Assembly (NCBI RefSeq): GCF_001701045.1
Contig: NZ_CP016757.1
Coordinates: 1,047,501 to 1,111,500 of the forward strand
From: Cloacibacillus porcorum
Lineage (GTDB): Bacteria > Synergistota > Synergistia > Synergistales > Synergistaceae
Reading direction: 5' to 3'
DNA: 64,000 nt
The position numbers and the translations under genes are program-made. This document shows, one piece after another, positions 2,489 to 12,375 of this stretch. The notes beneath the pieces were generated by a model. The model worked only from the letters and a program-made list of their open reading frames with translations. It was not told the origin of the DNA and made no database searches. Position 1 is the first letter of the stretch; each line of letters begins with the position of its first letter.

Positions 2489-2660
2489 TGACAAAGCAGG
2501 TAAACGTGAAAACGTTTATTCATAAAGTTTCTAGTGGTAATAGATAAGTGAGAAAGAAAATCTATGATTTTCGTCTTCGAACTTAGTTTGTTAGCTGGGA
2601 AAATTGACAAAGCAGGTAAACGTGAAAACGTTTATTCATAAAGTTTCTAGTGGTAATAGA
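2489..2660 (+). repeat. 56-bp direct repeat that includes the 5' end of the 5S gene
   Basis: Positions 2489-2544 and 2605-2660 are identical over 56 nt. The second copy runs into the true 5S gene and contains its first 16 nt. The first copy therefore ends in a 5S 5' stub (CTAGTGGTAATAGA) that stops abruptly. The 60 nt between the copies include a small AGAAAATC/GATTTT hairpin. It looks like a segmental duplication in the rRNA operon. Confidence 0.8.
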
Positions 2661-2761
2661 GGAGTGGATCCACCCGGTCCCATGCCGAACCCGGCAGTTA
2701 AGCACTCCATCGCCGATGGTACTACGGAGGGTATCCGTGGGAGAGTAGGTCGCCGCTAGAA
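2645..2761 (+). rRNA. rrf: 5S ribosomal RNA
   Basis: A 117-nt 5S rRNA with the conserved core around CCATGCCGAAC and the loop GGGAGAGTAGG. The ends form helix I: TTCTAGTGG at the 5' end pairs with CCGCTAGAA at the 3' end. It follows the 23S gene in the same direction and is closed by the terminator at 2774-2806. This is the intact copy; a damaged second copy follows. Confidence 0.95.
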
Positions 2762-2773
2762 TTAATTTGAAGA

Positions 2774-2806
2774 ACGGCCCTGAGGAAATCCTCGGGGTCG
2801 TTTTTT
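2774..2806 (+). terminator. rRNA operon terminator 1
   Basis: A GC-rich hairpin (CGGCCCTGAGG, loop AAAT, CCTCGGGGTCG) is followed by six T residues, 13 nt after the 5S 3' end. A near-identical copy lies after the 5S-like relic at 3068, so the terminator was duplicated together with the 5S gene. Confidence 0.9.
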
Positions 2807-2816
2807 GTGTTATTTA

Positions 2817-3055
2817 TTCTGTGCGTAACAAGGGAGTGGATCCACCCGGTCCCATGCCGAACCTGGCAGTTAAGCACTACATCGCGGGTGGTACTACGGA
2901 GGGTATCCGTGGGATGGCCAGGGAGCCAAAAGGCCGGTTCTGCCTTTTGTGCGAGGTCGGCTAGTTTGTCCACCATGGCCAGGGAGCCAAATCAGTGTTT
3001 TTCTGATTTGTGCGAGGTCGGCTAGTTTGTCTGTCAGAGTAGGTCTCCGCTGGAA
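2817..3055 (+). pseudogene. Degenerate second 5S rRNA copy interrupted by a tandem insert
   Basis: Positions 2833-2913 copy the 5S core with a few substitutions. The first 16 nt are diverged and no longer pair well with the 3' arm (CCGCTGGAA). After GTATCCGTGGG the 5S sequence is broken by 122 bp, the two 61-bp units at 2914-3035. It then resumes at AGAGTAGG and ends in the usual 3' arm. A functional 5S RNA is unlikely because the insert lies in the helix IV/loop region. The relic keeps its own terminator. Confidence 0.85.
2914..3035 (+). repeat. Two tandem 61-bp repeats with different but self-complementary stems
   Basis: Unit 1 is 2914-2974 and unit 2 is 2975-3035, both exactly 61 bp. They share ATGGCCAGGGAGCC at the left and GTGCGAGGTCGGCTAGTTTG at the right. 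The middle differs but forms a 7-bp stem in each: AAAAGGC/GCCTTTT in unit 1 and AAATCAG/CTGATTT in unit 2. An outer AGCC/GGCT pairing is also shared. This is the covariation pattern of a selected structure rather than random drift. Confidence 0.85.
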
Positions 3056-3067
3056 TTAATTTAAAGA

Positions 3068-3334: not shown

Positions 3335-3727
3335 CTATCTCTTGTCTCTCATAAAGTCCGAGAGCTTTTTCAGGTCACGAACATAGGAGAGGACCTTTAT
3401 CTTTTCCTCCATTGCCAGCTCGGCTACCGCCGTGAAAATCTCCCGCGTGATGCCGTTTGCCGCCGCGATATCGCCGCTGTCATCCGTATACTTAAGAAAA
3501 GGGCATTCTATCTGCCTCTCTTCCCTTATATCTTTTTTACTATCCTCGCCCATCAGCGAAACGAGAGAGACATCAAGCGCGGCCGCTATCTTCTCCAACG
3601 TTTTCAGGAAGGGGCGTTTCTTCCCATTTTCGATCTCTGAGATATAGCTTACGGAGAGATCGACCCTTTCCGCGAGATTTTCCTGTGTCAGCCCCTGGGC
3701 TATCCGGTACTTCTGAATCTTCCACAT
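3335..3727 (-). CDS. XRE-family helix-turn-helix transcriptional regulator
   Basis: A 130-aa DNA-binding protein. Residues about 5-60 form a Cro/CI-type HTH, with GLTQENLAERVDLSVSYIS as helices 2-3 and ENGKKRPFLKTLEKIAAAL following. The remaining 70 residues are charged, without a recognised domain, and may serve dimerisation or ligand sensing. It is transcribed away from a short AT-rich region that carries four helically spaced GCGAA motifs and two tiny ORFs on the other strand. That is the usual layout of a regulator controlling itself and a divergent partner. The target and signal are unknown. Confidence 0.85.
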   Translation of the reverse strand: MWKIQKYRIAQGLTQENLAERVDLSVSYISEIENGKKRPFLKTLEKIAAALDVSLVSLMGEDSKKDIREERQIECPFLKYTDDSGDIAAANGITREIFTAVAELAMEEKIKVLSYVRDLKKLSDFMRDKR

Positions 3728-4296: not shown

Positions 4297-6573
4297 ATGA
4301 AAATGAGGAAACTAAGAAAATACGGAATAATTTTTCTTGTGTTGCTGATGGCGCTGATGTGCGCGCCGATGGCGATGGCGGCTACAGAGATAGGTCAGAA
4401 CAATATTGGGGATTTATTTAAGACAGCGGGAGATTATATACTGTCTGAGGATATTGCTTTAAACGCTAACACAAAGGCGATAGAGCTTTCTAAAGATTTT
4501 ACGGTAACTCTGGATTTGAACGGGCACGTGGTCTCCTCTGATACGAGTGTCTACAAAACGACTGATAGCACAAAATATCCGGCCAGCATAATCTATGCGA
4601 CGTCAGGTGACATGACTATTAAGGATAGCCAGGGCGGCGGAAAATTGCTGGATGTCAGTACCGCCGCGTATAGCAGCAATAATGACGGCGTAATACGCGT
4701 GAAAAATGGAGCCAAGTTGACCGTCGAAAAAGCGATAATAGAGGTCAAAAATGGTATAGGCATCACAACATATGATGACGGGACCAGAGTGACATTTAAA
4801 GACGGTGAAATAAACGTTGAATATGGTTTTGGTATAGCCACAAACGGGACTAATATCACTGAGCCTGGTTCCGGCATCTATGTGGAGGGCGGAAAGATTA
4901 CCGTAGCTAGCGCAGATTCTGCTGCTATCTATCATCCCAGCAGCGGCACCTTAAGTATATCCGGCGGAGAGTTAAGTGCTGCTGACGGCATTCAGGTAAA
5001 AGCTGGAACGGTAATGATTTCTGGAGGAACAATCACCGCATCCGGAGATCATAAAGTTCCCGCAAATGGTGTTTTCTCCGGTGGAGGAACAAACGAGCTT
5101 GGCAACGCGCTGTCTTTGATATCGCATAAGAGCTATAAGGGCGCCTCTATGGACGTGACAATTTCCGGTTCGGCGACGCTCATCTCAGAACAAACAAACG
5201 CGATTGAAACGTATATAAGCAGCGGAGGCGTGGATCATGTAAAGTCATTCAAAGTAATTGGAGGTATTTACAGCACCGATCCTAGTGATTACGTCAAAAC
5301 GCCCTATGTCGTAAAGCAAGGGGCGGATATGATGTATACCGTGACCCTCGCCGGAGTGGCGGTCGATCCGTCGTCGGTCGAGCTCGTGTTGGGGCTGAAA
5401 AATACCGCGCAGCTGAAAGCCTCCAGCGATATCGACAAAGAATTCTCGTGGGAAAGCAGCGATCCAAAAGTCGTCACGGTTGAGGGCGGTTCTATCACAG
5501 CCGTCAGCGCGGGTACGGCCATCGTAACGGCTACGGGAGATGTCAGCGGGAGCAAGGGTGTCTGTAAGGTCTCCGTACGTGATACGGACGACGTTGTCGT
5601 GACACCGGCCAAACTAGAGCTTAACGTAGGCGACAGCGGCAAGGTGACGGCGACATGCGACAAGGCTGACACGTTTACGTGGGAGTCGAGCGATCCCAGC
5701 ATCGCCACCGTATCGTCCGACGGCACGGTGAAGGCCGTTAAGGCCGGTATCGCCGTCGTTACGGCGAAGGGCGGCGTCAACTCCGCGGGCTGCGTCGTGA
5801 GCGTTACCGACCCAGCTAAACCCGACCCCGTCCCGACGCCTGCGCCGGTCGTTGTCGGAACGGTGGATAAAGAGGATAATCCGGTCAACACGGAGAGCGG
5901 CAAACCGGAAAATGTAGAGGCCACAGAATCCAGTGTACTCGGCGCGACGGATGAGAACAAGAGATATACTGCCGAGAAGATCGGTTTTAAGGCTACGGAC
6001 CTTGTTGCTAACGCAGAGGGCGACCTTACCGTGAGCCCCGTCGTCGCCAAGAGCGCGGTCGAGTCGGTGATGTCGGACGACAGCACCGTAGCGCCGGAAA
6101 ACATCACGACGCTTCCGCTGGTCGAGGCCCAGGTGGAGAAGAGCAAAAATGTAGCCGCGATAGCCCTTATGCTGATGGGCGAGGACCTCGGCGCGAAGAA
6201 CGGCAGCGTCGTGGCAGATATCAACCTTGTAAAGGTATTCGCGAACGGTACGGGCGCGAAATTCGGATATGCCGCCGTCGCCTCCGAGTACGGGGACAAG
6301 ATGTTCACGCTCAAGAATCTCGATGGCAAGAGCCTGGCGTCTACGGACAAGGTAAATCCCGACGAAGTTTACACCCTGGTAGTCTTTGTGGCCGACAACG
6401 GAGATTTTGACCTCGATGATACACTGGGCAACGTCGTCGACCCGATAGCGATAGCCACCAACAAGGCCAAACCGGCTCCGACTCCGCACAGCAGCTCCAG
6501 CGGCTGTAACGCGGGATTCGCGGGACTTCTTCTGCTTGCGGCGGTTCCATTTATTTACCGCAGGAAGAGGTAA
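4297..6573 (+). CDS. Secreted beta-helix/Ig-like surface protein with Synergist-CTERM-type anchor
   Basis: A 758-aa exported protein. Residues 1-29 are a signal peptide ending AMA. Residues about 30-350 carry short glycine-rich repeats (GGKITV, SGGELSA, SGGTITAS) typical of a right-handed beta-helix. Two BIG_2-like Ig domains follow at about 352-430 and 433-505, each with WESSDP then AGTAIVTATG or AGIAVVTAKG. Residues 510-730 have no recognised domain. The tail has a Ser/Pro linker, SSSSGCNAGF, a hydrophobic helix and RRKR. This matches the Synergist-CTERM sorting signal, in which the Cys is presumably processed. The likely role is adhesion or cell-surface structure. The ribosome site is AAAGGGG. 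Confidence 0.85.
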   Translation: MKMRKLRKYGIIFLVLLMALMCAPMAMAATEIGQNNIGDLFKTAGDYILSEDIALNANTKAIELSKDFTVTLDLNGHVVSSDTSVYKTTDSTKYPASIIYATSGDMTIKDSQGGGKLLDVSTAAYSSNNDGVIRVKNGAKLTVEKAIIEVKNGIGITTYDDGTRVTFKDGEINVEYGFGIATNGTNITEPGSGIYVEGGKITVASADSAAIYHPSSGTLSISGGELSAADGIQVKAGTVMISGGTITASGDHKVPANGVFSGGGTNELGNALSLISHKSYKGASMDVTISGSATLISEQTNAIETYISSGGVDHVKSFKVIGGIYSTDPSDYVKTPYVVKQGADMMYTVTLAGVAVDPSSVELVLGLKNTAQLKASSDIDKEFSWESSDPKVVTVEGGSITAVSAGTAIVTATGDVSGSKGVCKVSVRDTDDVVVTPAKLELNVGDSGKVTATCDKADTFTWESSDPSIATVSSDGTVKAVKAGIAVVTAKGGVNSAGCVVSVTDPAKPDPVPTPAPVVVGTVDKEDNPVNTESGKPENVEATESSVLGATDENKRYTAEKIGFKATDLVANAEGDLTVSPVVAKSAVESVMSDDSTVAPENITTLPLVEAQVEKSKNVAAIALMLMGEDLGAKNGSVVADINLVKVFANGTGAKFGYAAVASEYGDKMFTLKNLDGKSLASTDKVNPDEVYTLVVFVADNGDFDLDDTLGNVVDPIAIATNKAKPAPTPHSSSSGCNAGFAGLLLLAAVPFIYRRKR

Positions 6574-6771: not shown

Positions 6772-7824
6772 ATGATTAATTTGTCGGATCAAATCGGAAA
6801 AGCCTGGAAGTTCGCGCTGCTGCTCATCGCCGTTACCGCCGTCTTTGCCGCCGCGGCGGCGCATGCGGCGGGTAAGGAGCTTATCGTCTATACGGCGCTG
6901 GAGAACGAGCAGATCAATAAGTACCTTGCCACTTTTAAGGAGGCTAATCCCGATATAGATGTTAAGATTGTCCGCGATTCTACGGGCATTATCACGGCGA
7001 AGCTGCTCGCCGAGGGCGCTAATACCCCCGCGGACGTTGTCTGGGGCACGGCGGCCTCCAGCCTTCTCGTGCTTGAGAAGAGGGGGCTTATCGAGCCATA
7101 CGCGCCGAAGGGGCTTGACCGCGTTGAAAAGATGCTGAAGGATACGGCGAATCCGCCCGCGTGGGTCGGCATCGACGCCTGGGAGTGCGCGATCGTGGTG
7201 AACACCGCCGAGGCGAAGGCCCAGGGGCTGCCCGCGATAAAGTCTTACAAGGATCTTCTCCGTCCCGAGTTTAAGGGAAAGATCGTAATGAGCAACCCCA
7301 ACTCGTCCGGCACCGGCTTCCTCGCCGTTTCGGGAATCCTCCAGCTGATGGGCGAGAGGGCGGGTTTCGAGTATCTCGACAAGCTGCATGAGAATATCGC
7401 GCTCTATACGCACTCCGGCTCCGCGCCCGCGAAGAAGGCCGCTTCGGGCGAGTTCCCCGTCGGTATCTCCTACGGTTACGCCGGTGTGAACCAGAAGAAG
7501 AAGGGGGCTCCCGTGGAGATCGTCTTCCCCGTGGAGGGCAGCGGCTGGGACGTCGAGGCGAACGCGCTGATTAAGAAGAAGAATATCAAGCCAGAGGCGA
7601 AGAAGTTCCTCGACTGGGCCATCTCCGACAGGGCGATTAACGCGCTGAAGGACGATTACGCGATCACGGCGGTGAAGGTGGGCAATTCGATCCCCGAGGG
7701 TTATTCAAAGGAGCCGCTCTCGCAGCTTGTGAAGAAGAACGACCTGCGCTGGGCCGCCCAGAACCGTGACCGTCTGCTGAAGGAATGGGCCTCCCGTTAC
7801 GAGGGCAAGACGGAAGCGAAATAG
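6772..7824 (+). CDS. 2-aminoethylphosphonate ABC transporter, periplasmic binding protein
   Basis: A 350-aa family 1 extracellular binding protein. It has an N-terminal signal segment (FALLLIAVTAVFAAAAAHA) and the iron/AEP-type fold start ELIVYTALENEQI. Later motifs such as VVWGTAASSLLVLEK and GFLAVSGILQLMG fit the FbpA/PhnS group. The substrate is assigned as 2-aminoethylphosphonate because the next four genes are ATPase, permease, phnX and phnW. Alone, the protein could be mistaken for a ferric-iron binder. ATG 6772 is preceded by GAGAGGA. The ATPase starts 10 nt after the stop. Confidence 0.8.
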   Translation: MINLSDQIGKAWKFALLLIAVTAVFAAAAAHAAGKELIVYTALENEQINKYLATFKEANPDIDVKIVRDSTGIITAKLLAEGANTPADVVWGTAASSLLVLEKRGLIEPYAPKGLDRVEKMLKDTANPPAWVGIDAWECAIVVNTAEAKAQGLPAIKSYKDLLRPEFKGKIVMSNPNSSGTGFLAVSGILQLMGERAGFEYLDKLHENIALYTHSGSAPAKKAASGEFPVGISYGYAGVNQKKKGAPVEIVFPVEGSGWDVEANALIKKKNIKPEAKKFLDWAISDRAINALKDDYAITAVKVGNSIPEGYSKEPLSQLVKKNDLRWAAQNRDRLLKEWASRYEGKTEAK

Positions 7825-7834
7825 GGGAAGATCG

Positions 7835-8803
7835 ATGACCACTCTCCGAGCGATAAACATTACCAAGAGATTTAAAGGCATGACGGCTCTCGACAGGGTG
7901 AGCTTCGAGATTCGCGACGGAGAGTTCGTCTGCATATTAGGCCCCTCCGGCTGTGGTAAGAGCACGCTGCTGCGTTCGCTCGCCGGGCTGGAGGCCATAG
8001 ATGAGGGAAGTATAGAGATCGGGGGGCGCGATGTGACCTGCGCTCCACCTTCGGAGAGAAATTTCGGGATAGTCTTTCAGTCTTACGCTCTATTCCCGAA
8101 TCTCAATGTCGAGGAGAATATCGCCTACGGCCTTTGGAATAAGGGGCTCTCCAAAGATGAGGCCGCGGAGCGCGTCGCCGGCATCATCGAGACCACGGGG
8201 CTCGGCTGTCACAGTAAGAAGTATCCCCAGCAGCTTTCGGGCGGACAGCAGCAGCGGGTCGCCATCTGCCGCGCGCTGGTGCTGAATCCGGAGTTTTTGC
8301 TCCTTGACGAGCCTCTGTCGGCGCTTGACGCGAAGGTGCGTCTCAAGCTCCGCAAGGAGATTCGCCAGATTCAGCAGCGTTTCGCGATCACGACGATTAT
8401 GGTCACGCACGACCAGGAGGAGGCCCTCTCGATGGCCGACCGTATCATCGTTATGAACGAGGGGCGCATCGAGCAGATGGACACGCCGCAGGCGCTCTAT
8501 GACGCTCCCGTCAACGGCTTCGTCGCCGACTTCGTCGGCACGGCTAATTTTGTCGGCGCGGACCGGGCGATCCGTCCCGAGAGCCTCTGTCTCAGCAAAT
8601 CGCTGTCTGACAACACGATCCAGGCAGAGGTCTGCGATGTGGAGTACCGCGGAGCCTTTTACCGCATAGAGGTGGATACGCATGTGGGGCATCTGATGGT
8701 AGATATCCCCTCGCAGCAGAGCGACGCGAAGGTTTTACGGCTCGGCAGCCGCCTCTATATAGATATTCCGCAGGATAAGGTCATAATGCTCAAGAGCGCC
8801 TAA
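7835..8803 (+). CDS. 2-aminoethylphosphonate ABC transporter, ATP-binding protein
   Basis: A 322-aa ABC ATPase of the CysA/PotA type. Walker A is GPSGCGKST (about residues 38-46), the Q-loop is FQSYALF, the signature is LSGGQQQR, Walker B is LLLDEPLSALD and the switch is TMVTHDQEEA. The C-terminal 90 residues have a short TOBE-like regulatory region. It energises the fused permease that follows 2 nt downstream. AGGGGAAG precedes ATG 7835. The substrate is inferred from operon context. Confidence 0.85.
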   Translation: MTTLRAINITKRFKGMTALDRVSFEIRDGEFVCILGPSGCGKSTLLRSLAGLEAIDEGSIEIGGRDVTCAPPSERNFGIVFQSYALFPNLNVEENIAYGLWNKGLSKDEAAERVAGIIETTGLGCHSKKYPQQLSGGQQQRVAICRALVLNPEFLLLDEPLSALDAKVRLKLRKEIRQIQQRFAITTIMVTHDQEEALSMADRIIVMNEGRIEQMDTPQALYDAPVNGFVADFVGTANFVGADRAIRPESLCLSKSLSDNTIQAEVCDVEYRGAFYRIEVDTHVGHLMVDIPSQQSDAKVLRLGSRLYIDIPQDKVIMLKSA

Positions 8804-8805
8804 CG

Positions 8806-10455
8806 ATGAGAAAGATAAAAAACGCCAACAGATCCGAGACCGCGCTTCTCGCGATAAATTTATCTCTGCTCTTTACAGCCGTCGCCGCGCCGATGGCTGT
8901 TCTTTTTGCGAAGGCCTTCACCGATTTTGACGGGGCCTATATCGGGTTCGCGAACTTCCGTGAATATTTTTCCTCGCCGCACCTCGTCGGGGCGCTCTGG
9001 AATTCGCTCGCGATATCGACGGCGGTCTCGCTTCTGTCGCTGCTGCTCGCCTTCACCTACGCCTACGCTCTGACGCGCGCGGTGGTCCCCGCGAAGGGGC
9101 TTTTTAAGTTTCTCGCGCTGCTGCCGCTCTGCGCGCCGACGATGATGTTCGGCATCGCGCTGATCTACCTGATCGGCAATAAGGGTGTCGTCACGATGAT
9201 GGGGCTGAAGCTGCCGCTCTACGGGCCGCTGGGAATAATCATATCAGAGGTGGTCTACACCTTCCCGCAGGCCTTTCTGATCCTCTATATCACGCTCTCT
9301 TATACCGACAACCGTCTTTATGAGGCGGCGCGCGCGATGGGGACGCGGCCTATGCGGATATTGCGCACGATCACGCTGCCGGGGGCGAAGTTCGGCCTTG
9401 TCAGCGCCTTTCTCGTCGCCTTCAGCCTCTGTTTCTCCGACTTCGGCGCGCCAAAGGTGGTCGGCGGCAATTACAGCGTGCTGGCCACCGATATCTATAA
9501 GCAGGTGATCGGACAGCAGAATTTTGGGATGGGCTCGGTAGTCGGACTGCTGCTGATGATCCCCGCCGTGATAATGTTCGTCACCGAGCGTCTCACGGCG
9601 AGTGAGAACGGCGTCACGGTCAGCTCGCGCAGCATGGCCTACCGTGTGGTCCCCTCGCGTGGGCGCGACGCGGCGCTTACGGTATTCTGCACCGCCGTCG
9701 CGGGGTTTATCCTCGTGCTCTTCGGCGCGGTGCTCGCCGCTTCGCTGATAAGGGCCTGGCCCTATAATATGGCGCTGACCTTCGAGCACTTCACGGTGGA
9801 CAGTCCCGCTACGGGAGGCATCAGCTCCTTTTTCAACAGCCTTGTCACCGCTTTGCTGACGGCGCTCTGCGGCACGGTATTCGTATTCATGAACGCCTGG
9901 CTGGTGGAGAAGAGCACCGCGAACAGGCTGCTGCGGCAGGCGGACAATCTCTTTTCTCTGATACCGCTGGCGCTGCCGGGGCTTTCAATTGGTCTGGCCT
10001 TCATATTCTTTTTCAATATGGAGGGCAACCCGCTGAATTTCATCTATGGTACGGCGGCGGTGCTGGTGCTCGCGAACATCGTCCATTTTTATTCGGTGCC
10101 CTATGTTACGGCCTCTTCGGCGCTGAAAAAGCTCGACCGCGAGATAGAGGCGGTCGCCGCCTCGATGGCCGTACCGTCATACCGGACGCTCTTTAAGGTT
10201 ACGGTGCCGATGTGCCGCGCCGCGATCTTTGAGACGGCGCTCTATTTCTTTGTCAACGCGATGGTGACGATATCCGCGGTGGTCTTTCTCTATCCCGCGG
10301 ATTTTAAGCTTGCCTCGGTGGCGATCGTCAATATGGAGGACGCGGGGGATATCGCGCCCGCCGCGGCGCTCTCCGTCCTTGTCATTCTCGTCAACGTGGC
10401 GGCGAAATTACTTTACGAATATATCTTTGTGATGAAAAGGAGCGGCAACAGATGA
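8806..10455 (+). CDS. 2-aminoethylphosphonate ABC transporter, fused double permease
   Basis: A 549-aa membrane protein with about 12 hydrophobic segments arranged as two repeated permease halves, as in FbpB/PhnT-type iron and AEP importers. Each half has the EAA-type loop that contacts the ATPase: YEAARAMGTRPMRILRTIT near residue 170 and IEAVAASMAVPSYRTLFKVT near residue 450. One gene thus replaces the two permease genes of many systems. Its stop overlaps the phnX start (ATGA, 10452-10455), indicating translational coupling. Confidence 0.85.
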   Translation: MRKIKNANRSETALLAINLSLLFTAVAAPMAVLFAKAFTDFDGAYIGFANFREYFSSPHLVGALWNSLAISTAVSLLSLLLAFTYAYALTRAVVPAKGLFKFLALLPLCAPTMMFGIALIYLIGNKGVVTMMGLKLPLYGPLGIIISEVVYTFPQAFLILYITLSYTDNRLYEAARAMGTRPMRILRTITLPGAKFGLVSAFLVAFSLCFSDFGAPKVVGGNYSVLATDIYKQVIGQQNFGMGSVVGLLLMIPAVIMFVTERLTASENGVTVSSRSMAYRVVPSRGRDAALTVFCTAVAGFILVLFGAVLAASLIRAWPYNMALTFEHFTVDSPATGGISSFFNSLVTALLTALCGTVFVFMNAWLVEKSTANRLLRQADNLFSLIPLALPGLSIGLAFIFFFNMEGNPLNFIYGTAAVLVLANIVHFYSVPYVTASSALKKLDREIEAVAASMAVPSYRTLFKVTVPMCRAAIFETALYFFVNAMVTISAVVFLYPADFKLASVAIVNMEDAGDIAPAAALSVLVILVNVAAKLLYEYIFVMKRSGNR

Positions 10456-11252
10456 CAAACTGCAGAAAAATCAAATGCGTGATCCTTGACTGGGCCGGTA
10501 CGACGGTGGATTTTGGCTCGATGGCCCCGCTTAAGGTCTTTTCGGAGATATTCGAGCAGCGCGGCCTGCGCCTCGAGATGGAGGAGCTGCGCGCGCCGAT
10601 GGGGATGCCGAAGCTCGAGCATATCCGCGAACTACTCAAAATGGAGCGCCCCGCGTGGCTGTTCAGGGAGAAATATGGACGCGCGCCGACAGACGACGAC
10701 GCTCTGGGGATCTACGCCGCCTTTGAACCGGCGCTTATGAATATACTCCACAACTTCGCCGAGCCGATAGAGGGGGTCTGCGCCGCGGTGCGGGAGCTCC
10801 GGGAGGCGGGAATAAAGATCGGTTCCACAACCGGCTATACGAGAGAGATGATGGATGTCATCGAGCCGCTCGCGAAGGCGGCGGGCTACGCGCCGGACTG
10901 CGTCGTGACGCCCGACGAGGTCGCCGGTGGGCGGCCGGCGCCGTGGATGATATTCAAGAATATGGAACGTCTCGGTGTCTATCCGCCCTGCGCGGTGGTA
11001 AAGGCGGGGGATACGGCGGCGGATATCCGCGAGGGCAAAAACGCCGGTGTGATCAGCGTCGGCATCTTAAAGGGAAGCAGCGAACTGGGCCTTACGGCTT
11101 CGGAGTTCGGGGCGCTCTCCGCGGAGGAGATCGAGGACAGAAAACAGGCCGCGCGGGAGCGTTTTTACCTTGCTGGGGCCGACTATGTGCTGGAGAGCAT
11201 CACAGAGCTTCCGGCTTTTGTAAAGGAGATCGGTAAAGATGAAAGAGAATAG
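10452..11252 (+). CDS. phnX: Phosphonoacetaldehyde hydrolase
   Basis: A 266-aa HAD-superfamily enzyme that cleaves phosphonoacetaldehyde to acetaldehyde and phosphate. The nucleophile is Asp13 in DWAGTT, and the Schiff-base lysine of the cap domain is Lys54 in [23 protein letters not shown] (motif 2) and [12 protein letters not shown] (motif 3/4) complete the active site. Length is normal for the family. It overlaps the permease by 4 bp and phnW by 14 bp, so the three are translated together. Confidence 0.95.
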
Positions 11253-12375
11253 ATATCTGCTTCTGACGCCGGGGCCGCTTACGACCACCGCCGGTGTGAA
11301 GGAGGCGATGCTTCGCGACTGGTGCACCTGGGACAGGGATTATAACGACGTCGTGGAGGAGCTGCGGCGCGGGCTTGTGGAGATGGCGCTGCGTGACCGC
11401 GCCGAATGCGCCAATTATACCTCCGTGCTGATGCAGGGCAGCGGCACCTTTGCCGTGGAGTCGGTGATCGGCAGCGTGATTCCGCGGGGCGGCAAATTGG
11501 CGGTGCTCTCGAACGGCGCCTACGGCAGGAGGATAGCGGAGATCGCGGGAATTTTGAAGATACCAGCCGTTGAGCTGCGTTTTGACGAATGCGAGCGCCC
11601 CGACGCGGCGATGCTGGCCGAGATGTTGGCGGACGATCCGGCGGTGACGCATGTAGCGGTGGTTCACTGCGAGACCACGACCGGTATCCTGAACGACATT
11701 GAGAGCGTTGGCCGTGTCGCGAAGAGCTGCGGCAAAAAGTTTATCGTTGACGCGATGAGCAGCTTCGGCGGCATTTCGCTCTATATGGACGACCTCGACA
11801 TAGATTTTCTGATCAGCAGTGCCAACAAGTGCATCGAGGGCGTGCCCGGCTTCGCCTTCGTCATCGCGAAGCGCGTGGAGCTGGCCGAATGCGGTGGACG
11901 TGCCCGCTCCCTTTCGCTTGACCTCTACAGCCAGTGGAAGACGATGGAGGAGCACCGTGGCAAGTGGCGTTTCACCTCGCCGACGCACGTCGTCGTCGCC
12001 TTCGCGGAGGCGATGCGCGAACTCAAAGAGGAGGGCGGCGTCGTCGCGCGCAATATGCGCTATACCGCCAATCGGGACATGCTCATCCGTGGAATGGAGG
12101 AGCTGGGTTTCCGTGCGCTTCTTCCCGATGAGCTGCGCTCGCCGGTGATAACCTCTTTCCTCTATCCGGAGGGAGTCGGTTTTGATTTTACTGACTTCTA
12201 TGAGTCCCTCAAACGGGACGGTTATGTGATCTACCCCGGAAAGCTCTCCGAACGCGACACCTTCCGCATCGGAAACATCGGGGATATCCGGGAGGAGCAG
12301 ATAACGGGACTTCTCGCCGCCGTCGAAAGGTACGTCAAGCGGCTGGAAAATGAAGCCCCGTCGCTCTGCGCTTAG
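11239..12375 (+). CDS. phnW: 2-aminoethylphosphonate--pyruvate transaminase
   Basis: A 378-aa class V aminotransferase that converts AEP and pyruvate to phosphonoacetaldehyde and alanine, feeding PhnX. The start [11 protein letters not shown] is characteristic, and the PLP lysine is Lys197 in SSANKCIEG, preceded by DAMSSFGG. Together with phnX it supplies phosphate, acetaldehyde and nitrogen from AEP. Its last 4 bp overlap the end of the convergent glycerate kinase gene, so there is no room for a terminator between them. Confidence 0.95.

Follow-up and report, generated by a model that had tools for sequence, protein, structure and literature searches.

How a 5S rRNA gene comes to be split by two hairpins whose arms differ in sequence and still remain complementary is the question raised by the rRNA locus at the start of the window, the term used here for the whole analysed stretch of 64,000 nucleotides from Cloacibacillus porcorum. 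The window begins with a 23S rRNA gene, which is followed by an intact 5S rRNA gene (2646..2761, + strand; Rfam cmscan RF00001, 102.4 bits) and, just 3' of it, by a degraded 5S copy (2818-3056; cmscan 46.8 bits from 2818). The spacer between the two contains a terminator-like hairpin (2768..2807, +). The 5' part of the remnant (2818..2914, +) ends with GTGGGA at 2914, the equivalent of E. coli A99, and the 3' part (3037..3056, +; direct repeat D2) resumes with GAGTAGG; in the intact gene, both motifs adjoin and provide the empty-site reference. In E. coli numbering, the cut separates A99 from G100; it falls within loop E of 5S rRNA. Beside the rRNA operon, a helix-turn-helix regulator (3335-3727, - strand) and a protein that has two Big_2 domains and is putatively secreted (4297-6573, +) are encoded. 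The region 6772-12375 encodes a solute-binding protein, an ABC transporter, a HAD hydrolase and a class-V aminotransferase in a row, which resembles a cluster for the uptake and degradation of 2-aminoethylphosphonate, with Pfam assignments for the HAD hydrolase and the aminotransferase only.

The interruption consists of unit 1 (2915..2975, +) and unit 2 (2976..3036, +), both of which were recognized from the sequence and are matched by the covariance model R1 described below. Each unit is exactly 61 nt long, and removal of both restores a 117-nt 5S-like sequence. In unit 1, stem 1 (TGGCC/GGCTA, 2915-2919/2959-2963) encloses a core made up of 2920-2927 (AGGGAGCC) and 2949-2958 (GTGCGAGGTC), inside which stem 2 (AAAAGGC/GCCTTTT, 2928-2934/2942-2948) is located, and a tail follows at 2964-2975 (GTTTGTCCACCA). 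Unit 2 has its stem 1 at 2976-2980/3020-3024, its core at 2981-2988 and 3010-3019, its stem 2 (AAATCAG/CTGATTT) at 2989-2995/3003-3009 and its tail at 3025-3036 (GTTTGTCTGTCA). The units have stretches of 17 and 25 nt in common, with 100% identity and a spacing of 61, and their differences are confined to stem 2, the loop and part of the 3' tail. The tandem units, their matching flanks and their two different, complementary stems are as described in the original prediction; it did not extend to the outer stem (TGGCC/GGCTA) with the conserved internal loop inside it, nor to the 12-nt tail.

Self-folding inserts at a fixed 5S point have been described before, also in pseudogenes, and other phyla have expanded 5S rRNAs, which contain helical inserts and are present alongside normal 5S rRNA (PMC7812874); Synergistota are not mentioned in this survey. 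The hairpins could be regarded as a ribosomal expansion segment of a functional minor 5S species, and several Synergistota genera have inserts at the same point of 5S. However, in all five rRNA operons of the genome, an intact 5S gene lies upstream of one or two insert-bearing remnants; helix I forms nine of nine pairs in each of the five intact genes, compared with 6-7 of nine at best in the remnants, scored with shifted registers allowed. The 5S copy is indeed broken, as originally proposed. In the window, the terminator-like hairpin precedes the remnant and loop E is split by the cut, and the majority of the hairpin family lies outside 5S genes. Because the host 5S copy has decayed, a functional expanded 5S rRNA is highly improbable. 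The inserts resemble the published expansion segments in that they fold on themselves and occupy a fixed 5S point, but here the only 5S copies that carry them are remnants, in which they lie at A99/G100, and the repeat family to which they belong is dispersed in the genome. The earlier designation as a 5S insertion is correct in that the units lie inside a 5S remnant, but the hairpin is dispersed rather than 5S-specific, with 5S remnants as one of the sites at which it has landed recurrently.

A blastn search with the two units against the C. porcorum genome gave 33 matches. Some of them lie in other 5S remnants at the identical point, and many are intergenic palindromic repeats. The covariance model R1, built from 12 diverse copies, matches this 3.59 Mb genome 54 times at E<=10 (52 of the matches have E < 0.01). 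Across Synergistota, R1 matches 33 of 188 genomes at E<=0.1, with a best E < 1e-3 in 26, and the copy number in related genomes ranges from none to more than 50. Matches in genome G182 (L050) and in G009/G010 (L116/L117) look coincidental or coding and were rejected. A strict exact pattern, too strict to exclude distant relatives, found a single other locus among 85,000 species genomes, which also belongs to Synergistaceae. The original prediction had anticipated either a folded element under selection or repeats whose stems are interchangeable; a lack of further copies, together with stems that do not pair elsewhere, was named as the contrary outcome. The covariance-model search of Synergistota uncovered a repeat family with covarying stems, whose copies recur and whose stems pair. 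The inserts belong to a family of small DNA hairpins that had no name so far, appears to be mobile and occurs across Synergistota.

An element is about 55-66 nt long: its two stems, 1 and 2, are separated by a conserved asymmetric internal loop, and a tail of 12 nt follows. The consensus of the first subfamily reads T-AAGC or T-GGCC (stem 1), AGNGARCC, stem 2, loop, GTGYGANTC, the complement of stem 1 and the tail. The internal loop (AGNGARCC / GTGYGANTC) is conserved, and both flanking stems are variable; stem 2 types include AAAAGGC, AAATCAG, AAATCGG, AAAACGC, AAAACGA, GAAATC, GATTTGC and CAAC, each with its complement. The tail is most often GTTTSTTCAYCA or GTAGTTACAYCA and usually ends with ATCA or ACCA. 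A MAFFT alignment of 12 diverse copies, made without fitting to the structure, retains all 15 pairs, of which seven are double-changed. The covariation score of these copies is 0.43 vs. 0.144 for shuffled and at most 0.094 for slid alignments, and none of 500 shuffles reaches it. Among 36 distinct ungapped 54-mers, which were likewise aligned independently of the structure, 98.5% of the cells pair, and single-pair variants are present (e.g., TA/CG/AT, GC/CG, TA/AT/CG); in 87 distinct rows fitted to the model, 14 of 15 pairs are double-changed, including a change of a core G-C to A-U. The alignments A3 and A5 are fitted to models, which counts against the best explanation. Both stems and the core G-C/A-U pair vary through compensatory change. 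With dozens of copies in the genome and a covariation score that no shuffle reaches, chance does not account for the 61-nt units.

Template-switch correction of quasi-palindromes is a known mutational process that gives rise to compensatory-looking changes, and it could keep the arms complementary without any selection. The block exchange of stem 2 between the otherwise identical units in the 5S remnant fits a template switch or gene conversion; however, this process should also erase the internal loop, which is non-complementary and nearly invariant while the flanking stems vary. Mere quasi-palindrome correction is disfavoured because the internal loop is conserved and unpaired, and we consider it very unlikely. 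Strong covariation around a conserved internal loop, together with the mainly intergenic location of the copies, would also suit a structured host RNA or a protein-binding site with a function in termination, transcript processing or nucleoid structure. Such a host function is rather improbable in view of the copy numbers, which differ so widely among related genomes, and of members that are nested in one another. Apart from ORFs within the repeats, flanks shared at a single locus and an IS element close by, no gene family recurs next to the copies; the corresponding clusters comprise repeat translations, shared tRNA-Leu/rRNA flanks and a transposase of the IS3-like kind, which lies close to a few copies. 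In addition, Rfam contains no match: with permissive thresholds, only 5S was matched around the inserts, and no other family reached its gathering score.

A second subfamily was spotted through its insertion inside copies of the first. Its members have the form TAAGT-GAGAxA-stem-CGTNNTCGA-ACTTA with a similar tail, and the outer T...A stem is common to both subfamilies. The corresponding model R2 matches 13 of the 188 genomes, and 9 of its 13 pairs are double-changed. One such hairpin is located 5' of the intact 5S gene in the window (2545..2597, +; R2 match G000:1050043-1050095, i.e., window 2543-2595, G000 being the C. porcorum genome). It reads TAAGT-GAGAAA-GAAAATC..GATTTTC-GTCTTCGA-ACTTA, has a degraded tail and is preceded by a further 5S copy that is truncated to its 5' end (TCTAGTGGTAATAGA; 2530..2544, +; direct repeat D3). 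It sits between the copies of a 65-bp direct repeat (2486-2550 and 2602-2666), by which the 5S leader and the first 5S bases are doubled.

Occupied and empty versions are known for three kinds of sites: the 5S site between GTGGGA and GAGTAGG, an intergenic palindrome cut between CTCTCTGAGG and GAGGTGTCGG, and the core of the first subfamily, which is cut between GTGYGA and NTCG and harbours a second-subfamily element at five loci in two species. At the 5S, intergenic and nested sites compared, no target duplication beyond one ambiguous base was found. The units look mobile because they form clean insertions without target duplication in 5S copies, intergenic palindromes and their own core. The left neighbour of 101 copies is A in 68% and is preceded by G in 60%, and the commonest position of insertion is directly 3' of GA or CA. 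A pattern that requires an insert of 42-70 nt at the 5S point was run against 188 genomes and matched G000, G130, G132, G140 and G165; the reversed-pattern control gave 0 matches. Genome G169 carries one element of each subfamily in tandem at this point, at the start of a contig, and none of the five 5S genes of the congener G137 has an insertion at A99/G100. In five or six genera, this point harbours elements of either subfamily or of both. The 5S inserts stem either from several gains or from a single gain followed by replacement and loss; in both cases, one and the same point is occupied by different elements. Two loci, L205 (G140) and L176 (G130), are 5S remnants with a further palindromic insertion of ~110-130 nt before the motif CGCCGATGG. 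A replication-strand bias (27 vs. 14, p=0.06) is not significant and suggestive only. Insertion into RNA was considered and dropped because the units are antisense to tRNAs but sense to 5S.

At some loci, a unit lies between a partial gene copy and a further copy, and an intact gene always remains. These arrays are found at tRNA-Leu(GAG) in four genomes, at tRNA-Arg(CCG) in two, at the 5S leader in three and at the start of one protein gene, and the tails of their units are degraded. At L026 (G000, ~265.9-266.6 kb), L147 (G137), L049 (G169) and L093 (G168), tandem 3' ends of tRNA-Leu(GAG) alternate with antisense hairpin units; the intact tRNA comes first, and the terminator is included in three of the four loci. 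L086 (G000, ~2.218 Mb) and L149 (G137) consist of tRNA-Arg(CCG), a unit and a second copy of the 3' half from the anticodon loop onward. L200 (G000, 911651-911943) has the same layout as the RNA genes: the first codons of a protein gene and a hairpin are repeated three times in tandem, followed by the intact gene. At some of the tRNA and 5S-leader arrays, the target flank is duplicated and the tails are degraded, which simple insertion does not explain; the arrays may have arisen when units entered tandem duplicates and deletions ensued, or may result directly from the insertion mechanism. The tRNA-Leu(GAG) and tRNA-Arg(CCG) 3'-fragment arrays, with units at their junctions, are also reminiscent of scars of site-specific integration, i.e., attachment sites at tRNA and rRNA genes. 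The elements, however, are too small for genes, most copies are intergenic and contain no tRNA sequence, and none matched the phage, plasmid and viral collections, so that there is little to recommend this origin.

Among known systems, REP elements and REPINs with their RAYT transposases (PMC3116915, PMC2817692, PMC3733652) are similar in many respects: the Synergistota hairpins are likewise short, intergenic, imperfect palindromes, which occur in tens of copies and composite arrays and are non-autonomous. They work like REP or MITE elements, but the GTAG/CGTC tag of REP elements is missing at the 5' foot of the hairpin, and no RAYT partner is found near the copies. The left flank is mostly GA, CA or TA with a variable foot, and GTAG is present in one subfamily only, on the 3' side. 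Unlike REP elements, the hairpins have a conserved internal loop between two variable stems and a 12-nt 3' tail, and enter 5S and tRNA regions as well as their own core. No report of REP-like elements in Synergistota was found in the openly licensed literature. A subterminal hairpin, the lack of target-site duplication and insertion after a short motif on one strand are shared with miniature elements of the IS200/IS605 type; the units differ from these in having a single hairpin and in that most tested carriers are devoid of a Y1 transposase. Y1 transposases (PF01797) are present in 7 of the 22 carriers searched and absent from 15. None of the 16 Y1 loci scanned contains an R1 match, no tested Y1 gene adjoins a unit, and the sole Y1 gene of C. 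porcorum is IS200-like, with ends unrelated to the units. A search for a mobilising enzyme, i.e., an adjacent IS200/IS605 or RAYT partner, in the own and 22 related genomes revealed none, and no recurrent neighbour gene of the copies resembles a driver. Rickettsia palindromic elements are mobile palindromes of a similar type, which are likewise present in many copies; they enter ORFs in frame, whereas the Synergistota hairpins are mostly found in intergenic regions or in duplicates of RNA genes.

Taken together, we consider it probable, at roughly 75%, that both inserts are copies of a palindromic mobile DNA element, which is non-autonomous, is present in many Synergistota and needs its fold to move. 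A recombinase or transposase supplied in trans would recognize the folded strand, internal loop and tail included, thereby allowing copies to persist. As the folded strand would be what this enzyme recognizes, the arms would be selected to stay complementary, and their sequence could drift or be exchanged among copies as long as complementarity is kept. In C. porcorum, a unit probably entered a redundant 5S copy and was spread by duplication and exchange among the five rRNA operons, and stem 2 would have been exchanged between lineages of units. The ribosomal work would be done by the intact upstream 5S gene, and the inserts would need no role in the ribosome. The most natural guess for the route would be one of the IS200/IS605-REP kind, in which hairpins are recognized on a single strand. 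A more far-reaching proposal, which we hold to be unlikely, is a new class of mobility: an enzyme would move hairpins of ~60 nt on single-stranded DNA, target the GA step in folded internal-loop motifs (5S loop E, the own core and tRNA arms), and the gene that is hit would be restored through duplication of the flank.

The proposed non-autonomous element adds a phylum-wide set of short mobile hairpins with strong covariation and without a known transposase, and the covariance models are ready for use in annotation. With this family, one can also ask in a natural setting whether an RNA-like structure can be maintained by selection for mobility and nothing else. Finally, the exact point in 5S loop E, which is reused by two subfamilies in several genera, provides a handle on the enzyme and its target rule.
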